Source of the DNA: an uncultured Phycicoccus sp.
Lineage (GTDB): Bacteria > Actinomycetota > Actinomycetes > Actinomycetales > Dermatophilaceae
Assembly: GCF_947495705.1 (NCBI RefSeq)
Contig: NZ_CANLZR010000001.1
Location: 558,001-622,000 of the forward strand
Reading direction: 5' to 3'
Length of the DNA: 64,000 bases
Each line of letters opens with the position of its first letter. Within the stretch, counting starts at the first letter, position 1. This document shows positions 13,445 through 23,249 of the stretch, piece by piece. The translations under genes and the position numbers were made by a program. The notes below the pieces were generated by a model. The model was not told the origin of the DNA, did not search any database, and was given only the letters and a program-made list of their open reading frames with translations.

Positions 13445-14665
13445 TCATCCCGGAATCCCGCTCCCCGCGGTCGTCACATCGAATTCACCAGTCACCGCAG
13501 CTGTGATCAACGACTGCTTGTACTCCCGCAGCAATGCCGCTGACTGTCGAACCTGCCCCAGGTGTTCTACATGCGCGGAGTCAATCCGTGACACCTCAGC
13601 GAGCAAGTCCGTCGTCGTGTTTTGATCAGCCAGGGGTACCGGGTAGTTCTTGAGATCACCCATATTCAGCACGGACTGCGCCGTCCCATGGGTGACTTCC
13701 TCAGTGAACCGCGCGAAGTCGGGAAGGCGAAGGACGGCCTGTACGTAAGCGCCGGCCACCCCGGTACGCGGCCGCAATCGGGCAATCGCACGGGACACGT
13801 TGGCACCTACGAGCTCCGCGTGCACCACTGTCGGACGCCCCAGCGTGCCCACAACCCCGAGCAGCACGTCGTCGCGTGCGAGTCTTGTCCGGATGTACTC
13901 AAGGCTCTGCGTGGCGGGGATGCGCGGGAGGCTGGCCTCTTCCACGGAACCGGAAGCTGGCAGGTCGGCGATGCGCACGATCGGGGTTCCAGCGTCCACG
14001 TATTCGGGCTTCAGCACGCCATAGCAAGGTGGCGCAGCCAACAGATCCTTCAGACGACCCCTCTGCTCAGTAGGTGCGAACACTGCTGACAACTGTGCTT
14101 GAGCCAGCTCGTCCGTCAATGCTGCCTGCTCTTGGCGGTGGACGATGATCTGGTCGATGCGGGCGACGCGGTCGTCGAGGAAGTCCGCGATCCGCTGCTG
14201 CTGGCCTAGGTCGTGGACCGGTACGGGCGTCGCCCGTAGGTCTGCGACGCCGAGGCCGTAGCGCGAGATGCCGCTCGCATGAGTGCTGAAGTGTGCGAGC
14301 GAGGGCCTTGATCGAAAGGCCCAGTTCAGGAAGCGCGGCACGACGCCCTCTCGGGGCCGGGCGATAGCCAGGTGGTAGCCGCACACGAAGTCGGCGGCCG
14401 TGCCTGTGATGAAGGCCGAGATCCCAATGTCGTTGGGATCTTCCGAGTCCTTCGTGAGTACGGTGTCGCCCGGCTGCAGTCGAAACCGTCGCACCTCTTC
14501 TGGAGTTGCTGTTGCCCTCATAAGACCGGCGTGGGGCTCGACGGTGTCGTTCTTGTAGGCGTCCGTGTAGTTGCACAGCCGTATTGGGATTTCGCCCTCG
14601 ACTGAGTGCTTGTCAACGCTGCTGCTCCACACCTCGGCGAGATGGCGGACCTGCGTGGCGGTCAC
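13445..14665 (-). CDS. hsdS: Type I restriction enzyme, S (specificity) subunit
   Basis: A 406-residue DNA-recognition subunit with the usual two halves. Each half has a target recognition domain (about residues 5-155 and 205-350) followed by a helical spacer with the family repeats (QQRIADFLDDRVARIDQII near 165 and DLLAEVSRIDSAHVEHLGQV near 365). The target sequence cannot be read from the protein. Its start overlaps the hsdM stop by four bases (ATGA), so the two are translationally coupled, as expected for a 2M:1S methylase. The two TRDs differ, implying a bipartite asymmetric site. Confidence 0.92.
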   Translation of the reverse strand: MTATQVRHLAEVWSSSVDKHSVEGEIPIRLCNYTDAYKNDTVEPHAGLMRATATPEEVRRFRLQPGDTVLTKDSEDPNDIGISAFITGTAADFVCGYHLAIARPREGVVPRFLNWAFRSRPSLAHFSTHASGISRYGLGVADLRATPVPVHDLGQQQRIADFLDDRVARIDQIIVHRQEQAALTDELAQAQLSAVFAPTEQRGRLKDLLAAPPCYGVLKPEYVDAGTPIVRIADLPASGSVEEASLPRIPATQSLEYIRTRLARDDVLLGVVGTLGRPTVVHAELVGANVSRAIARLRPRTGVAGAYVQAVLRLPDFARFTEEVTHGTAQSVLNMGDLKNYPVPLADQNTTTDLLAEVSRIDSAHVEHLGQVRQSAALLREYKQSLITAAVTGEFDVTTAGSGIPG

Positions 14666-16623
14666 AGGTCAAGGTCCTTCATCCAGGTCTGGATCTGGGT
14701 CTCCAGGTCCTTGATCTCGGCGGCGATCTCCTTGACGGGGCGGGGCGGTTCGTATACGTAGAACTGGCGGGTGAAGGGGATCTCGACGCCGACCTTGGTC
14801 CTGGTGTGGTCGATCCAGGCGTCCGGCACGTAGGGGCGGATCTCGGTCTCGAGGTGGGCCTCGGCGGCCTCGACCAAAGCCTTGTCGCGGGCGTCGTCGC
14901 CTAGGTCGAACCAGCCGACGGCCAGGGGCACGTTCTCGTTGTCGCGCAGGTCGGGGTCGGGCTCGACCGTCCCGCCGCGGCCGGTGACGACGGGGGCGTC
15001 AGGGTCGGCGACGGCGCAGGCCTTGGCGAACTTCTTCCGCTGCGCCGGGGACAGGTCGTTCACCTCGGCGAGAAGCGCCTTCTCGGTCTCGAACCGCAGC
15101 CCGATAAGCCCGCCGTAGGCGTCGAACGGTGCGGTAGCGACGGCCTCGGGGGTGACCTCCCAGCGGCGGCGCATAGGGCGGTCGACGGTGATCCGCTGGA
15201 AGCCGAATGCCTCGCGGGGCAGGACCTTGACGCGGGGATCGTCGGCGAACTCATCGCGAGCGCCGAGGAAGAGGCCCACTATCTCGTCGATCGCTGCCAG
15301 CGTCAGTTGCTTACGTTTGTCGCCGAGGGACTTGCGCATCTTGGTGCCCATCGCGCGGGCGTCGACGAGGCGTACCAGGCTGGCGTCCTCGGAGGCTTTG
15401 TCGTTGGTGAGGATCCAGACGTAGGTGGAGATGCCGGTGTTGTAGAACATCTGGTCCGGCAGGGCGACGATGCCTTCGAGCCAGTCGTTCTCGAGGATCC
15501 ACCGGCGGATCTCGGACTCGCCGGAGCCGGCCTGTCCGGAGAACAGCGGGGAGCCAGAGAGCACGATCCCGACCCGGGAGCCGCCGGGCTTCATGTGGCT
15601 GAGCATGTGCTGTAGGAAGAGGAACGAGCCGTCGGAGACCCGGGGCAGGCCGGCGCCGAACCGCCCGTGGTGGCCCTGGCCGTTGTGCTCGTCGCGGATC
15701 GGGCCGGCGTAGGCCTTCCAGTCCACGCCGTAGGGCGGGTTGGCGAGGATGAAGTCGAACTTCTCGGTGGGGAACGCGTCCTGGGTCAGGGTGTTGCCGT
15801 TTCGCATCCGTGCCGGGTCGATGCCTTGCATCATCAGGTCGGACTGGGCGATGGCCCAGGTCTCGTCGTTGATCTCCTGCCCGAAGACGTTGACGATCGC
15901 CGCGTCGTTCTGGCTCTTGATCTGGGCCATGGCGGTCATGAGCATGCCGCCGGTGCCGGCGGCCGGGTCGTAGACGGTGCGGACGGGTGCGGGGTTCTCG
16001 GTGAGCTCGCGGGCGGTGCGGCCGCTGACGAGGAGGTCGACGATGAGCTGGATGACCTCGCGCGGGGTGTAGTGCTCACCTGCGGTCTCGTTGCTCATCT
16101 CGGAGAACTTGCGTAGAAGCTCTTCGAAGACGTAGCCCATCGCCTCGTTGCTCACCATGGACGGGCGCAGGTCGAGGTCGGCGAAGTCGGCAAGGACGGC
16201 GTAGAGGATGCCGGCGCGGTCCATCCGCTCCAGCCGCCCGTCGAAGTCGTATGCCTCGATGATCCGGTAGGCGGTGGGGGAGAGCTTCGTGATGTAGTCG
16301 CGCAGGTTCGCGGCGACGTTCTTGTCGTCGCTGAGCATCGAGGAGAACGTGAAGGCCGACGTGTTGTAGAACGATTGGCCGGCCGCGCGCTTGAGTAGGG
16401 CGTCCACGCCCTCGTTGATCTGGTCGTACTTCGCCGCCTGGTTCCGCACCTGCTCCCGGGTGGGGGCCAGTACTGCGTCCATCCGGCGGAGCACGAGCAG
16501 CGGCAGCATCACCGACCCGTACTCGTGCTGCTTGAACGTCCCCCGGAGCTTATCCGCGACCTTCCAGACGAACGCGACCTTGTCCTCGAAGCCGACCGGC
16601 GCCATCTCTCCCTCTCGAGTCAT
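14662..16623 (-). CDS. hsdM: Type I restriction enzyme, M (adenine methyltransferase) subunit
   Basis: A 653-residue N6-adenine methyltransferase. Residues 11-155 are the HsdM N-terminal helical domain (FVWKVADKLRGTFKQHEYGS). The catalytic domain has the SAM-binding motif DPAAGTGGM at 219-227 and the catalytic NPPYG at 295-299. The C-terminal 200 residues include a coiled end (KEIAAEIKDLETQIQTWMKD) that likely contacts HsdS. The start could also be the Met at residue 7. The gene is longer than the roughly 500 residues of E. coli-type HsdM and matches a common actinobacterial form. The DUF3883 gene ends 30 bp upstream on the same strand. Confidence 0.95.
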   Translation of the reverse strand: MTREGEMAPVGFEDKVAFVWKVADKLRGTFKQHEYGSVMLPLLVLRRMDAVLAPTREQVRNQAAKYDQINEGVDALLKRAAGQSFYNTSAFTFSSMLSDDKNVAANLRDYITKLSPTAYRIIEAYDFDGRLERMDRAGILYAVLADFADLDLRPSMVSNEAMGYVFEELLRKFSEMSNETAGEHYTPREVIQLIVDLLVSGRTARELTENPAPVRTVYDPAAGTGGMLMTAMAQIKSQNDAAIVNVFGQEINDETWAIAQSDLMMQGIDPARMRNGNTLTQDAFPTEKFDFILANPPYGVDWKAYAGPIRDEHNGQGHHGRFGAGLPRVSDGSFLFLQHMLSHMKPGGSRVGIVLSGSPLFSGQAGSGESEIRRWILENDWLEGIVALPDQMFYNTGISTYVWILTNDKASEDASLVRLVDARAMGTKMRKSLGDKRKQLTLAAIDEIVGLFLGARDEFADDPRVKVLPREAFGFQRITVDRPMRRRWEVTPEAVATAPFDAYGGLIGLRFETEKALLAEVNDLSPAQRKKFAKACAVADPDAPVVTGRGGTVEPDPDLRDNENVPLAVGWFDLGDDARDKALVEAAEAHLETEIRPYVPDAWIDHTRTKVGVEIPFTRQFYVYEPPRPVKEIAAEIKDLETQIQTWMKDLDL

Positions 16624-17552: not shown

Positions 17553-17621
17553 CACTGAGTCGCCTTCCACCGAACCGGCATGATGCGGTGTGGGAATCGA
17601 AGCATCTATGGAGGGGCAAGC

Positions 17622-18380
17622 ATGTCGGACGCCGAACGTCGACCTGTGTCGAAGACTCTGCAAAGGGTCAACCCGCTTCCGTTGGCGAAAGACCTCATCG
17701 CGGCAGGAGCCGACGCTCCCAAGCGGATGGTCGGATGGGTCCTCGAACGCGATGCCGAGAGCATCGCGCGACAAGTCGAAGCGGATCGGGGGCGACCCGG
17801 CTTCTCTACAGAGGACTACGTGAGGAAGGTGCAGGGCTCCCATGTACGCCTGGCGCGCAGTGAGGGAGCCGGCGCCGGGATGGCCACGGCCTTGGCGGAG
17901 CTGGGAGGAGCCGCAGCCGCAGGTCCTGCGGGCGCTATCACTGGCGCCGCCGTGACGATCGTTGCCGATCTCGCGATCCTGAGCCGAATTCAGATTCGTC
18001 AGTCCCTTACGATCGCCGCGGCCTACGGACTCGACCTCTCCGATGATGAGACCCGCGCGTCGGAGATCCTGTCGCTGCACAGCCTCGAGGCGGCCAGTTC
18101 GAAAAGTGCCCTAGGCGCCGGACAAAAGGCGGGGCAACGCGTGGGCAAGCGACTTCTGGAGCGATATCTCCGGGGCCAGACGCTCACGGCCGTTAAGGCG
18201 ATGTTCCGCCTGGTGGGCGTCAACTTCTCTCGGGCGGCGCTCGTCAGGTCACTCCCACTCATCAATGTCCCTGTCAACGCCGCCCTCGCCGACGTGACCA
18301 CGCGGCGCGTCGGGGCCAAGGCCGCGACCTACTACCGCAACCACCCCAGCGCGACCCCAACGGTGGGTGTCTCGGCATGA
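17622..18380 (+). CDS. EcsC family protein
   Basis: A 252-residue protein with the EcsC-type pattern: an Ala/Gly-rich hydrophobic stretch (GGAAAAGPAGAITGAAVTIVADLAILSR, about residues 97-124), then IRQSLTIAAAYGLDL. It ends with the RSLPLINVPVNAALADVTTRRVG-like region and AATYYRN. The name comes from an orphan protein of the Bacillus ecs locus whose biochemical role is unknown. ATG 17622 has GGAGGGG five bases upstream, better than in-frame starts further up. It ends 52 bp before the GmrSD-type gene on the same strand, so the two are probably co-transcribed. Membrane association is likely from the hydrophobic segments. Confidence 0.75.
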   Translation: MSDAERRPVSKTLQRVNPLPLAKDLIAAGADAPKRMVGWVLERDAESIARQVEADRGRPGFSTEDYVRKVQGSHVRLARSEGAGAGMATALAELGGAAAAGPAGAITGAAVTIVADLAILSRIQIRQSLTIAAAYGLDLSDDETRASEILSLHSLEAASSKSALGAGQKAGQRVGKRLLERYLRGQTLTAVKAMFRLVGVNFSRAALVRSLPLINVPVNAALADVTTRRVGAKAATYYRNHPSATPTVGVSA

Positions 18381-18432: not shown

Positions 18433-20862
18433 ATGAAGACCGACGTCTTGACGCCCCAAACGGTCTTCTATCTGCCCCAGCACCTCGTAGTGCCTCTCTT
18501 CCAGCGGCCTTATGTGTGGGACGAGACGGAACAGTGGTTGCCCTTCTGGCAGGACGTTGCGAGATTGACTGAGATGCGCCTTGCGAATCCGTACTCGGCA
18601 CCCACCCACTTTCTCGGCGCCGTAGTACTCCAGGCAGTCGACGGTCAGCAGGGTGCGGTCCCGCAGAAGAACGTGATCGATGGGCAGCAGCGCCTGACGA
18701 CCCTGCAGCTGCTGGTCGATGCTGCCGCGTCGGTGTTGGAAGAGCGGGGGTTCGACGGACTCGCCCAACGATTTGACGATCTCACGCACAACCGCGCGTA
18801 CGGACACGGTGGGGCGGCCACGCTCAAAGTGACACACACAAACGCCGACGGTTCTGCCTTCCGCGAGGTCATGGATTCTGAACCTCCGGTTGACCACTCA
18901 TCTCTGAAGCATGCCAAGTCTCGGATCACTCGGGCCCACGAGTTCTTCACGCGCAAGGTCGACGAGTGGATCGGAATTGAACCTGCGGCTGAAGATCGCG
19001 CCTCGGCGCTGATGGAGTCCATCAGCCAAGGCCTTCAGCTCGTCGTCATCGACTTACTGGCGAGCGAGAACTCGCAGGAGATCTTCGAGACGCTCAACGC
19101 GCGCGGGACCCCGCTCACCGCGGCCGACCTCATCAAGAACTTCGTCTTCCAACGCCTCGAGAGCGAAGGTGCCGACATTCGTCTGGCCTACGCCGAGGAC
19201 TGGCCCTTCGAGACGAAGTTCTGGGAGCAGGACGTCAGTGTCGGCCGCTACACCATGAGCCGTAGCTCGCTGTTCCTGAGTCAATGGCTCGGTAGCCGTC
19301 TTGGCGAAGAGGTCAGTCCTCGACAGACGTTCGTCCGCTTCAAGAGCTACGTCGACCACGAGGCCGGCGTGACCATGCTGGACCTCCTTCGTGCTATCAA
19401 AGCCCAGGCCGAGCTTTACCGCGATTGGACCGAGGCGGCCGAAGACACGTCCCGGACGCTAAGCCGGGCGCAGCTGGCCATCTATCGCATGCGCAGCGGC
19501 GGCGTCGAGCTCCTCAAGCCAGCCATGATCTGGCTTTACGACCCCGAGAACGCAATCCCCCACGCGGTAGCCGACGAGGTTCTTGCCATGCTCGAGTCAT
19601 GGATGGTGCGACGGCAGCTCCTACGTCTTACCTCCGCTGACTTGGGCCGGATCGTGGCTGACATCATCAGTCGGCACCGGACGACGCCTGCAGACCAGTT
19701 GAAAGCCGCTGTCGAGGCTCAGTTGAGCCGTCTGGACGCCTCGTCGACGTACTGGCCAGGGGACGACGACGTGCGCCAGCACCTGCAGACGGAACAGGCG
19801 TACAGCCGCTACACGCGCGGTCGGTTGCGGATGTACCTCGAGGCGGTCGAAGACCACCTGCGATCGGTCCACGGATATCAGCAGGTAGCCCGCGTTGGGT
19901 ACCCAATCGAGCACGTGCTGCCGCAAAAGTGGCAGACCTACTGGCCCGTCGAGGACATCGAGGCCGAGCTCGCGAGGAGTGAGCACGTCCACCGACTTGG
20001 GAACCTGACGCTCCTGACGACGAGCCTAAACAGCACGGTGTCGAACGGTCCATGGGATGGGGAAAGCGGTAAGCGAGCCCACATCTCCGCTCACGACGCC
20101 CTCCTTGTCAATCGGCCCTTCGACAGACAGGACACGTGGGATGAGGCGGCCATCGATGCACGTACCGGCTGGCTGACGGACCGGCTGCTCGAGGTCTGGC
20201 CGGTCCCCGACGGGCACCTAGGAGAGATCAAAGACGCGCAAGCCAGAGACAACACCTGGGTCGAGGTCAAGCACTTGCTGGCGGCAGGGTTGCTCGCGCC
20301 GGGAACGATTCTGCGGGCCCGACCCGGTCAGTGGGGGGCCGTAGAGGCCGTCGTCCTTGCCGATGGCCAACTACAGATAGGTGACCGTGTCTTCTCGACC
20401 CCTTCAAGCGCGGGACAGTACGCCAAGTCCGGGAAGACGACTAACGGCTGGCGATTCTGGCGGGTCGATGACAACCAGTCTCTTGCTGACGTTCGCTCCG
20501 CTTATCGAGGGGAGAGGGCGGAGAGAACGGCCGGCTTTGACTGGTCACCCCTTCACGAGATTCTAGAAGTCCTGCCAGCAGCCCGGTGGACCTCCTACAG
20601 GGACCTGGCCGACGCGATCGGTACGGCACCTCAGCCGCTGGGTGGCCACATCACGAACTGTCGGCAGTGCGCCCACCCTTGGCGTGTTCTCAACGCGGAC
20701 GGTCGCGTGGCGGCCAAGTTCTCGTGGAGCGACCCGAGCGACACCCGAGTGCCGGCAGATCTTCTGCGCGAGGAAGGTGTTCGTCTCGTCGACGGCGTCG
20801 CCGACCCCGAGCAACGACTTGATACCGATGCGCTGCTAGCCCTGCTTGCCGAGGATGACTAG
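18433..20862 (+). CDS. GmrSD-type restriction enzyme (DUF262-DUF1524) with RAMA-like and alkyltransferase-like C-terminal domains
   Basis: An 809-residue multidomain protein. The DUF262 (GmrS-like, NTP-dependent) domain spans about 1-240, with VPLFQRPYVW at 20-29, FLGAVVLQ and the signature DGQQR at 83-87. The DUF1524 HNH-like nuclease (GmrD) is near 430-600, with IEHVLPQKW and HRLGNLTLL (H494, H520, N524). Residues about 609-690 resemble a RAMA domain (VEVKHLLAAGLLAPG ending GWRFWRV). Residues 702-795 resemble the DNA-binding fold of O6-alkylguanine transferases, with WTSYRDLADAIG and PWRVLNADGRV. The acceptor Cys of PCHR is Trp, as in catalytically dead ATL proteins. I chose ATG 18433 because the DUF262 domain starts there. 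Likely a type IV, modification-dependent restriction enzyme. Confidence 0.85.
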   Translation: MKTDVLTPQTVFYLPQHLVVPLFQRPYVWDETEQWLPFWQDVARLTEMRLANPYSAPTHFLGAVVLQAVDGQQGAVPQKNVIDGQQRLTTLQLLVDAAASVLEERGFDGLAQRFDDLTHNRAYGHGGAATLKVTHTNADGSAFREVMDSEPPVDHSSLKHAKSRITRAHEFFTRKVDEWIGIEPAAEDRASALMESISQGLQLVVIDLLASENSQEIFETLNARGTPLTAADLIKNFVFQRLESEGADIRLAYAEDWPFETKFWEQDVSVGRYTMSRSSLFLSQWLGSRLGEEVSPRQTFVRFKSYVDHEAGVTMLDLLRAIKAQAELYRDWTEAAEDTSRTLSRAQLAIYRMRSGGVELLKPAMIWLYDPENAIPHAVADEVLAMLESWMVRRQLLRLTSADLGRIVADIISRHRTTPADQLKAAVEAQLSRLDASSTYWPGDDDVRQHLQTEQAYSRYTRGRLRMYLEAVEDHLRSVHGYQQVARVGYPIEHVLPQKWQTYWPVEDIEAELARSEHVHRLGNLTLLTTSLNSTVSNGPWDGESGKRAHISAHDALLVNRPFDRQDTWDEAAIDARTGWLTDRLLEVWPVPDGHLGEIKDAQARDNTWVEVKHLLAAGLLAPGTILRARPGQWGAVEAVVLADGQLQIGDRVFSTPSSAGQYAKSGKTTNGWRFWRVDDNQSLADVRSAYRGERAERTAGFDWSPLHEILEVLPAARWTSYRDLADAIGTAPQPLGGHITNCRQCAHPWRVLNADGRVAAKFSWSDPSDTRVPADLLREEGVRLVDGVADPEQRLDTDALLALLAEDD

Positions 20863-21558: not shown

Positions 21559-21936
21559 TTAGTCCACCTTCGGCGTGACCTCGTTCAACTCGGGGGACAG
21601 CTCGTTGATCAAAGCGGCCTTCACCTGACGTGTGTCCTCGGTGTAGGTGACTCGGAAGGTGCAGCGTTCGAGCCAAGCGCGGATCTCCTCGCGTGTCGCT
21701 GTCCGGCCCAGCTCTTTGTCCAGAATGCGACCCACCTTCTCGTGCAGGATCGACGCCTCGCGGTCACCCGTGAGGTGCATCCGCACGCGCGAACGAGTGG
21801 AACCGCTGAGTCCGACGTACAAAGCTCGACCGCCGGGGCGGTACACCACGTGCACGCCCGGGTCATCGGCCAGTCCGGCGAGGGCGGACTCGTCTCCCAG
21901 CGAACGGGCTGGGGAGAGCATGGACTCGACACTCAT
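21559..21936 (-). CDS. GIY-YIG nuclease family protein
   Basis: A 125-residue protein with a GIY-YIG-like core: GVHVVYR, ALYVGLSGSTRSRVRMHL and a terminal KAALINELSPELNE that supplies the family's conserved Glu and Asn. Such domains cut DNA; small standalone versions have varied or unknown roles. ATG 21936 has GGAGG eight bases upstream and is preferred to the longer frame from 21972. It lies at the right edge of the defence island beside a NERD gene, so a nuclease role in defence or a mobile element is plausible but unproven. Confidence 0.75.
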   Translation of the reverse strand: MSVESMLSPARSLGDESALAGLADDPGVHVVYRPGGRALYVGLSGSTRSRVRMHLTGDREASILHEKVGRILDKELGRTATREEIRAWLERCTFRVTYTEDTRQVKAALINELSPELNEVTPKVD

Positions 21937-22061
21937 CACGAACCTCCGACCAGAGGGGATGTCGAGGCCCACGTTACGCAGGCCGAGCCGAGTGGCGTCA
22001 GCGAAGACGCTGCGCGCGTGGGGCCCGGCCAGGATCAGCTAGGACGTCGGCATCCACTTGG

Positions 22062-22960
22062 TCACTTCGGGGCTCCCGTCGTCATGGAAGGAAGCCGCTG
22101 CGCGGCGAGGCGAGCCACCTCGAGGCGTTGGGCGTCGTCCCACTCGCCGTCGGCCGAGACCAACTGGGCCAAGCCCCTGAGCCCGCACAGCCGGACGCCG
22201 TTGACGCGTCGATCCTCTCGCGCATCGGCAGCAGCCCGTCGACGAAGCACAGGACCGGGACGACCGGGGAGCCCTCCAGGTCGCTGCCGACCAGCGCGCC
22301 GGCGACGACATCGCGCTGCGTGCGCATGGCGGTGACGAGAGCGTCGCGCTTACGGTTCTTCACCTTGAGAGTCTCGATGCGAGGTCCGAACAGCCCGCCG
22401 CTGCGCTCCACCGACACCTCGGCGTCCTTGTAGTACTTCGCGTCGATGACGAAGATGCCGGCGGCCCCGACGAAGAGGTGGTCGATGTTCGACCGCTTGC
22501 CCGGGACGCGGCGGTCATGGAGGGCATAGCCGGCGCCGGCCTCGGTGCGTTCGAGCAGGGCTTTGGCGACGCGCTCCTCGCCGACAGCACCGACCTTCCA
22601 GGCGTGGGTGGTCTGCCGCCCATCCGGGTAGAAGAACGAGTTGAGGGCTCGCCAGACTGCACTGCGCTCGGCGCGGGCTGCGTCGTCCTTCGCCTTACGT
22701 CGCTCGTACTCCCTGAGAGCAGCGGCGCCAGCCACACCGACGTCGATGACCGGCTCCTCCGGCTCCGGTGCGACGTCGGGCTCCTCGACCGATGCCGCCG
22801 GAGTCGACTCCCGCAGCGGGGTGACGCTTTCGTCCAAGCAGGGGAGACACAGCACCCTCTTGGCCTCCCGGTCGTATGCCGCCCGCTCGCCCTTCGCGAT
22901 CGCCGTGCCGCAGTGGCATTCGCCGGCGTAGCGGAGCCGCATCACCTTCACGTCCGACAC
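22062..22960 (-). pseudogene. NERD-domain protein, frameshifted near the C-terminus
   Basis: The first 255 residues read normally: an N-terminal zinc-ribbon-like part (RLRYAGECHCG, CLPC), an acidic linker, then a NERD nuclease-related domain (VGAVGEERVAKALLE, SNIDHLFVGAAGIFVIDAKY). At about 22205-22209 the frame breaks. The expected C-terminal residues (VNGVRLCGLRGLAQLVSADG and on to PSMTTGAPK) continue in another frame and stop at 22062, while the original frame runs on as unrelated low-complexity sequence to 22082. Two extra bases (GC in GACGCGTC) explain the shift. GTG 22960 has GGGGAGG six bases upstream. The nuclease core is intact, so a truncated protein could still act. Confidence 0.7.
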
Positions 22961-23249
22961 CCTCATCCTCCCCAGGTCGCCGCATCGACACCGGCGCGTG
23001 CTGCAGAGCTTCGCCACTCCACATGGACAGAAGGTAGGGCGTGAGCGAGGCGCACCGTGAGAACTTGAAACGAACCGTCAGCCCTCGGCGACGTGGCGAG
23101 GCGGCCGACGTTCTCGATCGCGTGTTCCGTCCGACAGGCGCTCACGACCACAGGGGCCCCTGGTCGCGCCCGAATATGGCTCATTCGTGGCATAGGCAGG
23201 ACGGTGAAACCTCCCTACCGTCGTGCTGGATGACTGGAGGGAGAGCGCC

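Follow-up and report, generated by a model that had tools for sequence, protein, structure and literature searches.

A GmrSD-type restriction enzyme of an uncultured Phycicoccus sp. with a RAMA domain and a putative target-reading domain of the alkyltransferase-like fold

The window considered here, a 64,000-nucleotide stretch of the genome of an uncultured Phycicoccus sp. (contig NZ_CANLZR010000001.1, positions 558,001 to 622,000), contains a gene for a GmrSD-type restriction enzyme (18433-20862 of the window, forward strand), in which the nuclease core is followed by a RAMA domain and by a C-terminal tail that, according to its structural model, has the fold of the alkylguanine alkyltransferase (AGT) and alkyltransferase-like (ATL) superfamily with no acceptor Cys. 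The tail has the predicted ATL fold but does not qualify as an ATL when the defining residues are considered, and our reading is that it serves modification-dependent restriction enzymes as an exchangeable module for target recognition, with a rebuilt pocket. On balance, the protein seems to be a modification-dependent, type IV-like GmrSD nuclease, stimulated by nucleoside triphosphates (NTP), in which two DNA-binding modules at the C-terminus would help to choose the target. The gene and its domains are the following:

18433..20862, forward strand: GmrSD-RAMA-ATL-like fusion gene, 809 amino acids (aa) plus stop (open reading frame, Pfam, full-length model)
18484..19149, forward strand: GmrSD_N / DUF262, residues 18-239, with DGQQR at 83-87 (Pfam PF03235, 117.5 bits, cut-off 33.2, E 1.1e-33)
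19753..20178, forward strand: GmrSD_C / DUF1524 HNH nuclease domain, residues 441-582, with IEHVLPQ and GNLTL (Pfam PF07510, 78.3 bits, cut-off 23, E 6.9e-22)
20242..20517, forward strand: RAMA domain, residues 604-695 (Pfam PF18755, E 1.5e-17; 7ydw fold match)
20518..20859, forward strand: restriction-type ATL-like domain, residues about 696-809 (profile, AlphaFold2/Foldseek, residue alignment)

The gene is one intact open reading frame of 809 codons plus stop. AGGTGG stands directly 5' of the ATG at 18433 (seen by eye), and an alternative in-frame GTG start at 18367 would give a product of 831 aa. Its own genome (3.5 Mb assembly) contains only one match to the protein at E 1e-3. DUF262 and DUF1524 are joined in a single chain that carries the DGQxR and EHxxP motifs of the GmrSD family, the latter as E493-H494-x-L496-P497. 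In a 26-row alignment that includes the window protein, DGQQR (83-87), E493, H494, P497, N524 and GNLTL (523-527) are invariant, and therefore the nuclease core looks intact. A sequence-only reading of this DNA had given the coordinates, these core motifs and the domain order correctly, as Pfam and the alignment confirm. The full-length model (predicted local distance difference test score, pLDDT, 86.5; predicted template-modelling score, pTM, 0.63) was used for single domains, the placing of domains relative to one another not being relied on. Its core matches DndI (Foldseek E 2.7e-14), SspE and BrxU (range 2.7e-14 to 1.1e-4), which have the DUF262/DUF1524 core fold in common with the window protein and which are not known to carry a RAMA or ATL-like tail. 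For the phosphorothioate-sensing SspE and DndI, dnd genes would be expected in the genome; a search of the genome of the window that covered DndC (TIGR03183), and no ssp or further dnd gene, gave no match at E 0.01.

Both domains that the sequence-only reading had proposed for the last 200 residues were found by profile and fold comparison. The RAMA domain scores well above the Pfam gathering cut-off (PF18755, 63.9 bits versus 35.2), DUF4357 overlaps it in the Pfam scan, and the full-length model matches the RAMA domain of MPND (7ydw) with a Foldseek probability of 1.00, a template-modelling (TM) score of 0.65 by target and E 0.032. The ATL-like domain lies below the gathering cut-off of PF01035 (residues 709-783, 17.6 bits versus 27, E 0.0034), also when the 118-residue tail is scanned alone (22.1 bits). 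The cut-off is passed by relatives of the domain in four of the ten proteins scored: L079 (36.1 bits), L067 (29.4), L070 (29.0) and L066 (28.9). A profile of 19 domains finds Schizosaccharomyces pombe Atl1 first (3gva, E 4e-8) and the Vibrio parahaemolyticus ATL second (2kif, 2e-6), the Cys-bearing AGTs among the matches listed ranking behind both. An AlphaFold2 model of the tail, built from 26 rows, has a pLDDT of 93.1 and a pTM of 0.83, and in a Foldseek comparison with the PDB all of its first 41 matches are AGT or ATL chains (E 4.1e-3 to 0.24), 39 of them with a probability of at least 0.90, the first unrelated match being at rank 42 (E 2.0). The best TM score is again that of Atl1 (0.58 by query, 0.63 by target). 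The full-length model also matches 2kif (probability 1.00, E 0.18).

The residues of the presumed pocket were compared in 27 non-canonical domains, of which 23 are restriction-type (L113 and 22 others that are part of nuclease proteins or frames) and four are small or regulator-like (L114, L116, L119 and L120). Five divergent domains, on GmrSD (L076, L077, L117) and McrB (L078, L131), were added later to the 23, giving 28 restriction-linked domains; the partial domains of L075 and L115, as well as L118, were excluded from the counts. The canonical AGT/ATL set was drawn from the same profile searches and is not a random sample: 33 candidate loci gave 32 rows (there was no row from L125 at i-Evalue 1e-3), and 30 were left after dropping L094 and L104, identical to L120 and L050, respectively. 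The roles of the Arg finger, the Tyr and the Trp that stands in for the Cys are taken from the accessible part of PMC10779285.

The invariant R751-V752 register places Pro749 at the Cys position and Trp750 at the His position, and the sequence-only reading, which had Trp in place of the acceptor Cys and the following His absent, was thus off by one. The acceptor Cys is indeed replaced in the window domain, though not by Trp as in most ATLs. Tyr722 is kept and the Arg finger is replaced by Gln734, so the pairing of Arg with Tyr that marks an ATL proper is incomplete. Tyr is present in all 23 restriction-type and all 30 canonical domains, whereas the Arg finger, found in 30/30 canonical domains, occurs in none of the restriction-type ones (Gln in 16, Val in 6, Met in 1), and the Cys position holds Pro (5), Ala (16), Val (1) or Gly (1) versus Cys (18) or Trp (12) in the canonical set. 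The restriction-type domain instead conserves Trp719 (23/23 versus 0/30), Phe763 (23/23 versus 17/30) and Trp765 (23/23 versus 0/30), together with Arg751. The column aligned to Atl1 Arg69 is uninformative, Arg being found there in 0/23 and 0/30. Over all 28 restriction-linked domains, Tyr is kept in 25, the Arg finger in one (L117), Cys or Trp at the Cys position in none, Trp719 and Arg751 in 28 each, and the Phe763-Trp765 pair in 23. Trp719 and Arg751 are thus kept in all five divergent domains, whose Cys position is in no case occupied by Cys or Trp. L076, L077 and L117, where Tyr and Phe-x-Trp are gone, give the impression of a module that is decaying or shifting its target further. Three of the four small or regulator-like relatives keep the Arg finger; L114 (2611-3303), L119 and L120, which have this finger and no acceptor Cys, may bridge the canonical ATLs and the restriction-type domain. 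A motif H739-x3-C743-x2-C746 (window 20647-20670), which may bind a metal where the recognition helix ends, is present in 12/23 restriction-type, 0/4 small and 0/30 canonical domains, its bearers sitting on the tree branch that holds the window.

The domain is distributed over several architectures. RAMA was matched in 26/26 aligned proteins and PF01035 in 9/26 (Pfam, E 0.01; the window and 15 of the 21 relatives ending after RAMA are among the 26). The order GmrSD-RAMA-ATL-like occurs in nine proteins (window, L002-L004, L061, L062, L064, L110 and L112), and GmrSD-ATL-like without RAMA in eleven (L063, L065, L067-L074 and L079; the RAMA profile was run on all 11 and Pfam on 7/11). The four-domain order, which the sequence-only reading had called distinctive, therefore recurs in other genomes, and the joining of GmrSD to PF01035 had already been published in 2015 (PMC4619093, accessible part). 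In two genomes the domain is carried by a McrB protein, together with Mrr_N and AAA_5 (L078, 6701-9262; L131, 3879-6515, ATL-like domain E 7.9e-17), and mcrC follows in both (E 4.2e-60 and 9.1e-57, respectively), so that, by the predicted gene content, McrB(C) is a second restriction engine using the ATL-like module; 3/47 genomes of that family matched the query, one of them only partly. A 467-aa frame (L066, 6657-8054), located between genes of MZB- and UvrD-type helicases and an HNH_repeat gene, carries PF01035 above the cut-off behind a weak NucS-like stretch (PDB E 0.18), and its front part is perhaps a NucS-like nuclease. RAMA reached only an i-Evalue of 0.27 in this frame and is not claimed for it.

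Of 29 loci with similarity to the entire protein, one (L030) is a stub, leaving 28 usable, and the closest named relative is that of Phycicoccus (L002), 79% identical over the GmrSD protein. The ATL-like domain is found in three of the 28 (L002-L004); the frame of L021 is broken and L024 is short. In one relative (L005) DUF6416, and in another (L011) DUF4268, replaces the ATL-like domain at the C-terminus, and the slot behind RAMA looks interchangeable.

A four-row profile matched 35/396 genomes of the order at E 1e-4, comprising 19 with the restriction type (G177 frame-broken, G209 with an internal stop), 11 with a Trp-type ATL, on its own or within a longer frame, and five that were not fetched; a whole-protein match was present in 79 of the same 396 genomes (E 1e-15). 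A 19-row profile matched 44/396 genomes of the phylum at E 1e-8, and 17 of the 30 loci fetched from these proved to be short PCHR frames of AGT type. No match to the ATL-like domain was found in 50,697 phage records at E 0.01, none of 35 pattern matches in viral contigs was confirmed, and in plasmids three different domain queries pointed to a single Streptomyces record.

The ATL-like domain and the core do not always seem to share a history. L065 and L063 are only 23% and 25% identical to the window in the GmrSD core, as compared with 51% and 48% in the ATL-like domain. The core of L065 is closer to those of the RAMA-less L067-L079 (27-31%), whereas its ATL-like domain is closer to the RAMA group (46-53%) than to the RAMA-less group (34-44%). 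The ATL-like domain of L066 is 47% identical to that of the window and has no GmrSD core beside it. Within the RAMA group, core and domain co-vary (51-81% and 52-77% identity). In a tree of 57 rows, which omits L076, L077, L078, L117 and L131 and to which a long-branch warning applies, the 27 non-canonical domains are split from the 30 canonical AGT/ATL with support of 100/100 and a branch of 2.97, and the RAMA-bearing L064 clusters with the RAMA-less L063 and L065 (96/87). The approximately unbiased (AU) test rejected the 21 GmrSD-linked domains as one clade (p 0.012), but this group was picked after the tree was seen and the test is confounded by L113, which is among the excluded rows and, with a frame of only 151 aa, may be part of a broken gene.

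GmrSD type IV enzymes are characterised by NTP-dependent cleavage of modified DNA, such as DNA with glucosylated hydroxymethylcytosine. The mechanism that we propose would start from a GmrSD core acting as an NTP-stimulated HNH nuclease, as is taken from its family (PMC12707154). RAMA would hold duplex DNA, and the ATL-like domain, judging by its fold and conserved residues, would sit in the minor groove, where Tyr722 might help to flip a base while Gln734, not Arg, fills the gap. The flipped base might be tested in a remodelled pocket formed by Trp719, Arg751, Phe763 and Trp765, and a fitting modified base, probably made by a phage, would license the HNH domain to cut. A more far-reaching and tentative possibility is that the domain belongs to an unnamed class of modified-base readers with an ATL fold, no acceptor Cys, a Gln or Val finger, W-T-x-Y in most members and an F-x-W lid in the GmrSD/L066 branch, which might be exchanged among GmrSD, McrBC and perhaps a NucS-like nuclease of Actinomycetota, letting different engines see a hypermodified base. 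As a guess, this base could be a 7-deazaguanine or an alkylated purine of actinophages. In the subgroup that conserves H-x3-C-x2-C, a metal might in addition be bound close to the side that faces the DNA, and RAMA plus the ATL-like domain would make a two-reader enzyme demanding two features of the DNA before cutting.

Several observations weigh against modification reading by a mobile module. The ATL-like domain appears dispensable for most relatives of the whole protein, since 21 of the 28 usable ones stop shortly after RAMA, and the AU test did not reject the nine RAMA-linked domains as one clade (p 0.175). No Foldseek match of the ATL model in the PDB reaches E 0.001, the best being 4.1e-3. 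With the Arg finger gone, base flipping may have been given up as well, and Tyr itself is missing from the GmrSD-linked L076, L077 and L117, being kept in the McrB domains L078 and L131. Phe763 and Trp765 are absent from all five divergent domains, and the pocket is thus not uniform. The role of RAMA as a base reader is disputed in the accessible parts of PMC9963953 and PMC11037411, and the activity of all members is a prediction from sequence. Adding the five divergent domains slightly lowered our confidence in modification reading and slightly raised that in a plain clamp.

The latter alternative, in which RAMA and the ATL-like domain serve as non-specific DNA clamps or multimerisation surfaces and the GmrSD core confers specificity in the way suggested for BrxU, is unlikely, though the most probable of the rivals. 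The RAMA domains of MPND and CcrM touch the backbone with no base contacts, and N6-methyladenine (6mA) left DNA binding by MPND unchanged in one study (both from the accessible part of PMC9963953), so that RAMA is not the established modified-base reader that the sequence-only reading had assumed. Target recognition by BrxU was suggested to occur at the interface of its two domains (PMC12707154, accessible part), and the lost Arg finger and the lack of universality of Tyr and Phe-x-Trp would also fit a clamp. The retention of Trp719 and Arg751 in 28/28 domains and of Phe763 and Trp765 in 23/28 is, we infer, more than a plain clamp would need, and the ability of DUF6416 or DUF4268 to occupy the place of the ATL-like domain speaks against a clamp as well.

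A canonical ATL reader, binding bulky O6-alkylguanine in phage or damaged DNA where the nuclease would then cut, is improbable in spite of the ATL-like fold, Atl1 as the top profile match, the complete absence of the acceptor Cys and the base-flipping Tyr kept in 25/28. The Arg finger is present in 1/28 restriction-linked domains (L117) as compared with 30/30 canonical ones, 0/28 have Trp in the place of the Cys, and the tree sets the group apart from canonical AGT/ATL. The O6-alkylguanine reading offered by the sequence-only reading thus loses both the Arg finger and the Trp, with only Tyr kept, and O6-alkylguanine, as in Atl1, is unlikely to be the base read. Little favours a role in repair instead of defence either, with the nuclease steered to alkylated or damaged DNA: ATL-EndoV and AGT-EndoV fusions do exist (PMC10779285, accessible part), but the spread of the restriction-type domain is patchy (19/396 genomes of the order), the gene sits in a restriction cassette, the domain is also borne by McrB beside mcrC, and the genome of the window has separate PF01035 genes. 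These are three further frames of 172, 336 and 346 aa; of the two inspected, one is PCHRV-type and one a Trp-type ATL. That H739-x3-C743-x2-C746 is a relocated acceptor or redox site making the domain a one-shot sensor rather than a dead reader is very improbable. Its confinement to restriction-type domains among those compared speaks for this, but the motif is absent from 11/23 of them and a metal site or disulfide would be simpler.

Fusion of GmrSD to PF01035 (DNA_binding_1) was reported for several proteins, mainly of Streptomyces, by Machnicka et al. (2015, PMC4619093), with DUF4357 and DUF4268 as further extras. These homologs share DUF262, DUF1524 and an AGT-type domain with the window protein, and PF01035 is described there as the DNA-binding domain of O6-methylguanine repair proteins; the accessible part of that paper contains no pairing of RAMA with ATL, no remark on a missing Cys or Arg finger and no link to McrB. 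The ATLs of S. pombe (Atl1), V. parahaemolyticus and E. coli have the same fold, no acceptor Cys and a conserved Tyr, whereas the restriction-type domain is fused to nucleases, has Gln or Val for the Arg finger and Pro or Ala at the Cys/Trp56 position, and conserves Trp719 and mostly Phe763 and Trp765. RAMA-Mrr-NTPase and GIY-YIG-RAMA fusion nucleases, for which RAMA was proposed as a 6mA reader (PMC11037411, accessible part), resemble the window protein in carrying RAMA on a nuclease, the latter adding a GmrSD core and an ATL-like domain. The archaeal ATL-EndoV likewise joins an ATL to an endonuclease but is discussed, in the accessible part of PMC10779285, as a repair protein and not a restriction enzyme. 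Extra domains fused to GmrSD may serve the restriction of other modification states, according to the accessible part of PMC12707154, where an author note mentions ongoing work on RAMA-HNH fusions. No description of a GmrSD-RAMA-ATL-like fusion, or of McrB or type IV restriction with an alkyltransferase-like domain, was found in the accessible parts of the open literature searched, most subscription papers and supplements lying outside it. As far as these searches go, the GmrSD-PF01035 fusion is known, and what is new is its combination with RAMA, the absence of the Arg finger and the occurrence on McrB.

SRA, EVE and winged-helix domains have been recruited as specificity modules. If target reading by the ATL-like module is right, evolution did the same with a DNA-repair fold, and more than one kind of restriction engine took it up. 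This would help to find out which modified bases are recognised by the restriction enzymes of actinobacteria, and would supply a compact domain from which sensors of DNA modification could be made.

The gene is preceded in the window by the following genes:

17580..18380, forward strand: EcsC-like gene, ending 52 bases before the ATG (Pfam PF12787, 33.3 bits); 80% in L002
16654..17619, reverse strand: NOV_C gene, PADLOC PDC-S36 (Pfam PF13020; PADLOC E 5.7e-87); 74% in L002
10438..16623, reverse strand: type I restriction-modification genes (Pfam; PADLOC for hsdS and hsdM)
14662-16623, reverse strand: hsdM (Pfam, PADLOC); 85% in L002
13445-14665, reverse strand: hsdS (Pfam, PADLOC); only 50% in L002
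10438-13437, reverse strand: hsdR (Pfam); 86% in L002 over 326 aa at the locus edge

Phycicoccus L002 keeps all these neighbours (hsdR, hsdM, hsdS, NOV_C and EcsC). The divergence of hsdS (50%, versus 85-86% for hsdR and hsdM) looks like a swap of specificity inside an otherwise conserved cassette, and the adenine-methylation sites of the two hosts may therefore differ while the GmrSD protein is still 79% identical. A host would presumably suffer if RAMA triggered cutting at any 6mA.

Downstream of the fusion gene lies a 137-aa frame that looks by eye like GIY-YIG and has no Pfam hit (window 21559-21972, reverse strand). It is followed by a gene for a NERD nuclease-related protein (window 22082-23017, reverse strand), and NERD is also found near the L002 homolog.

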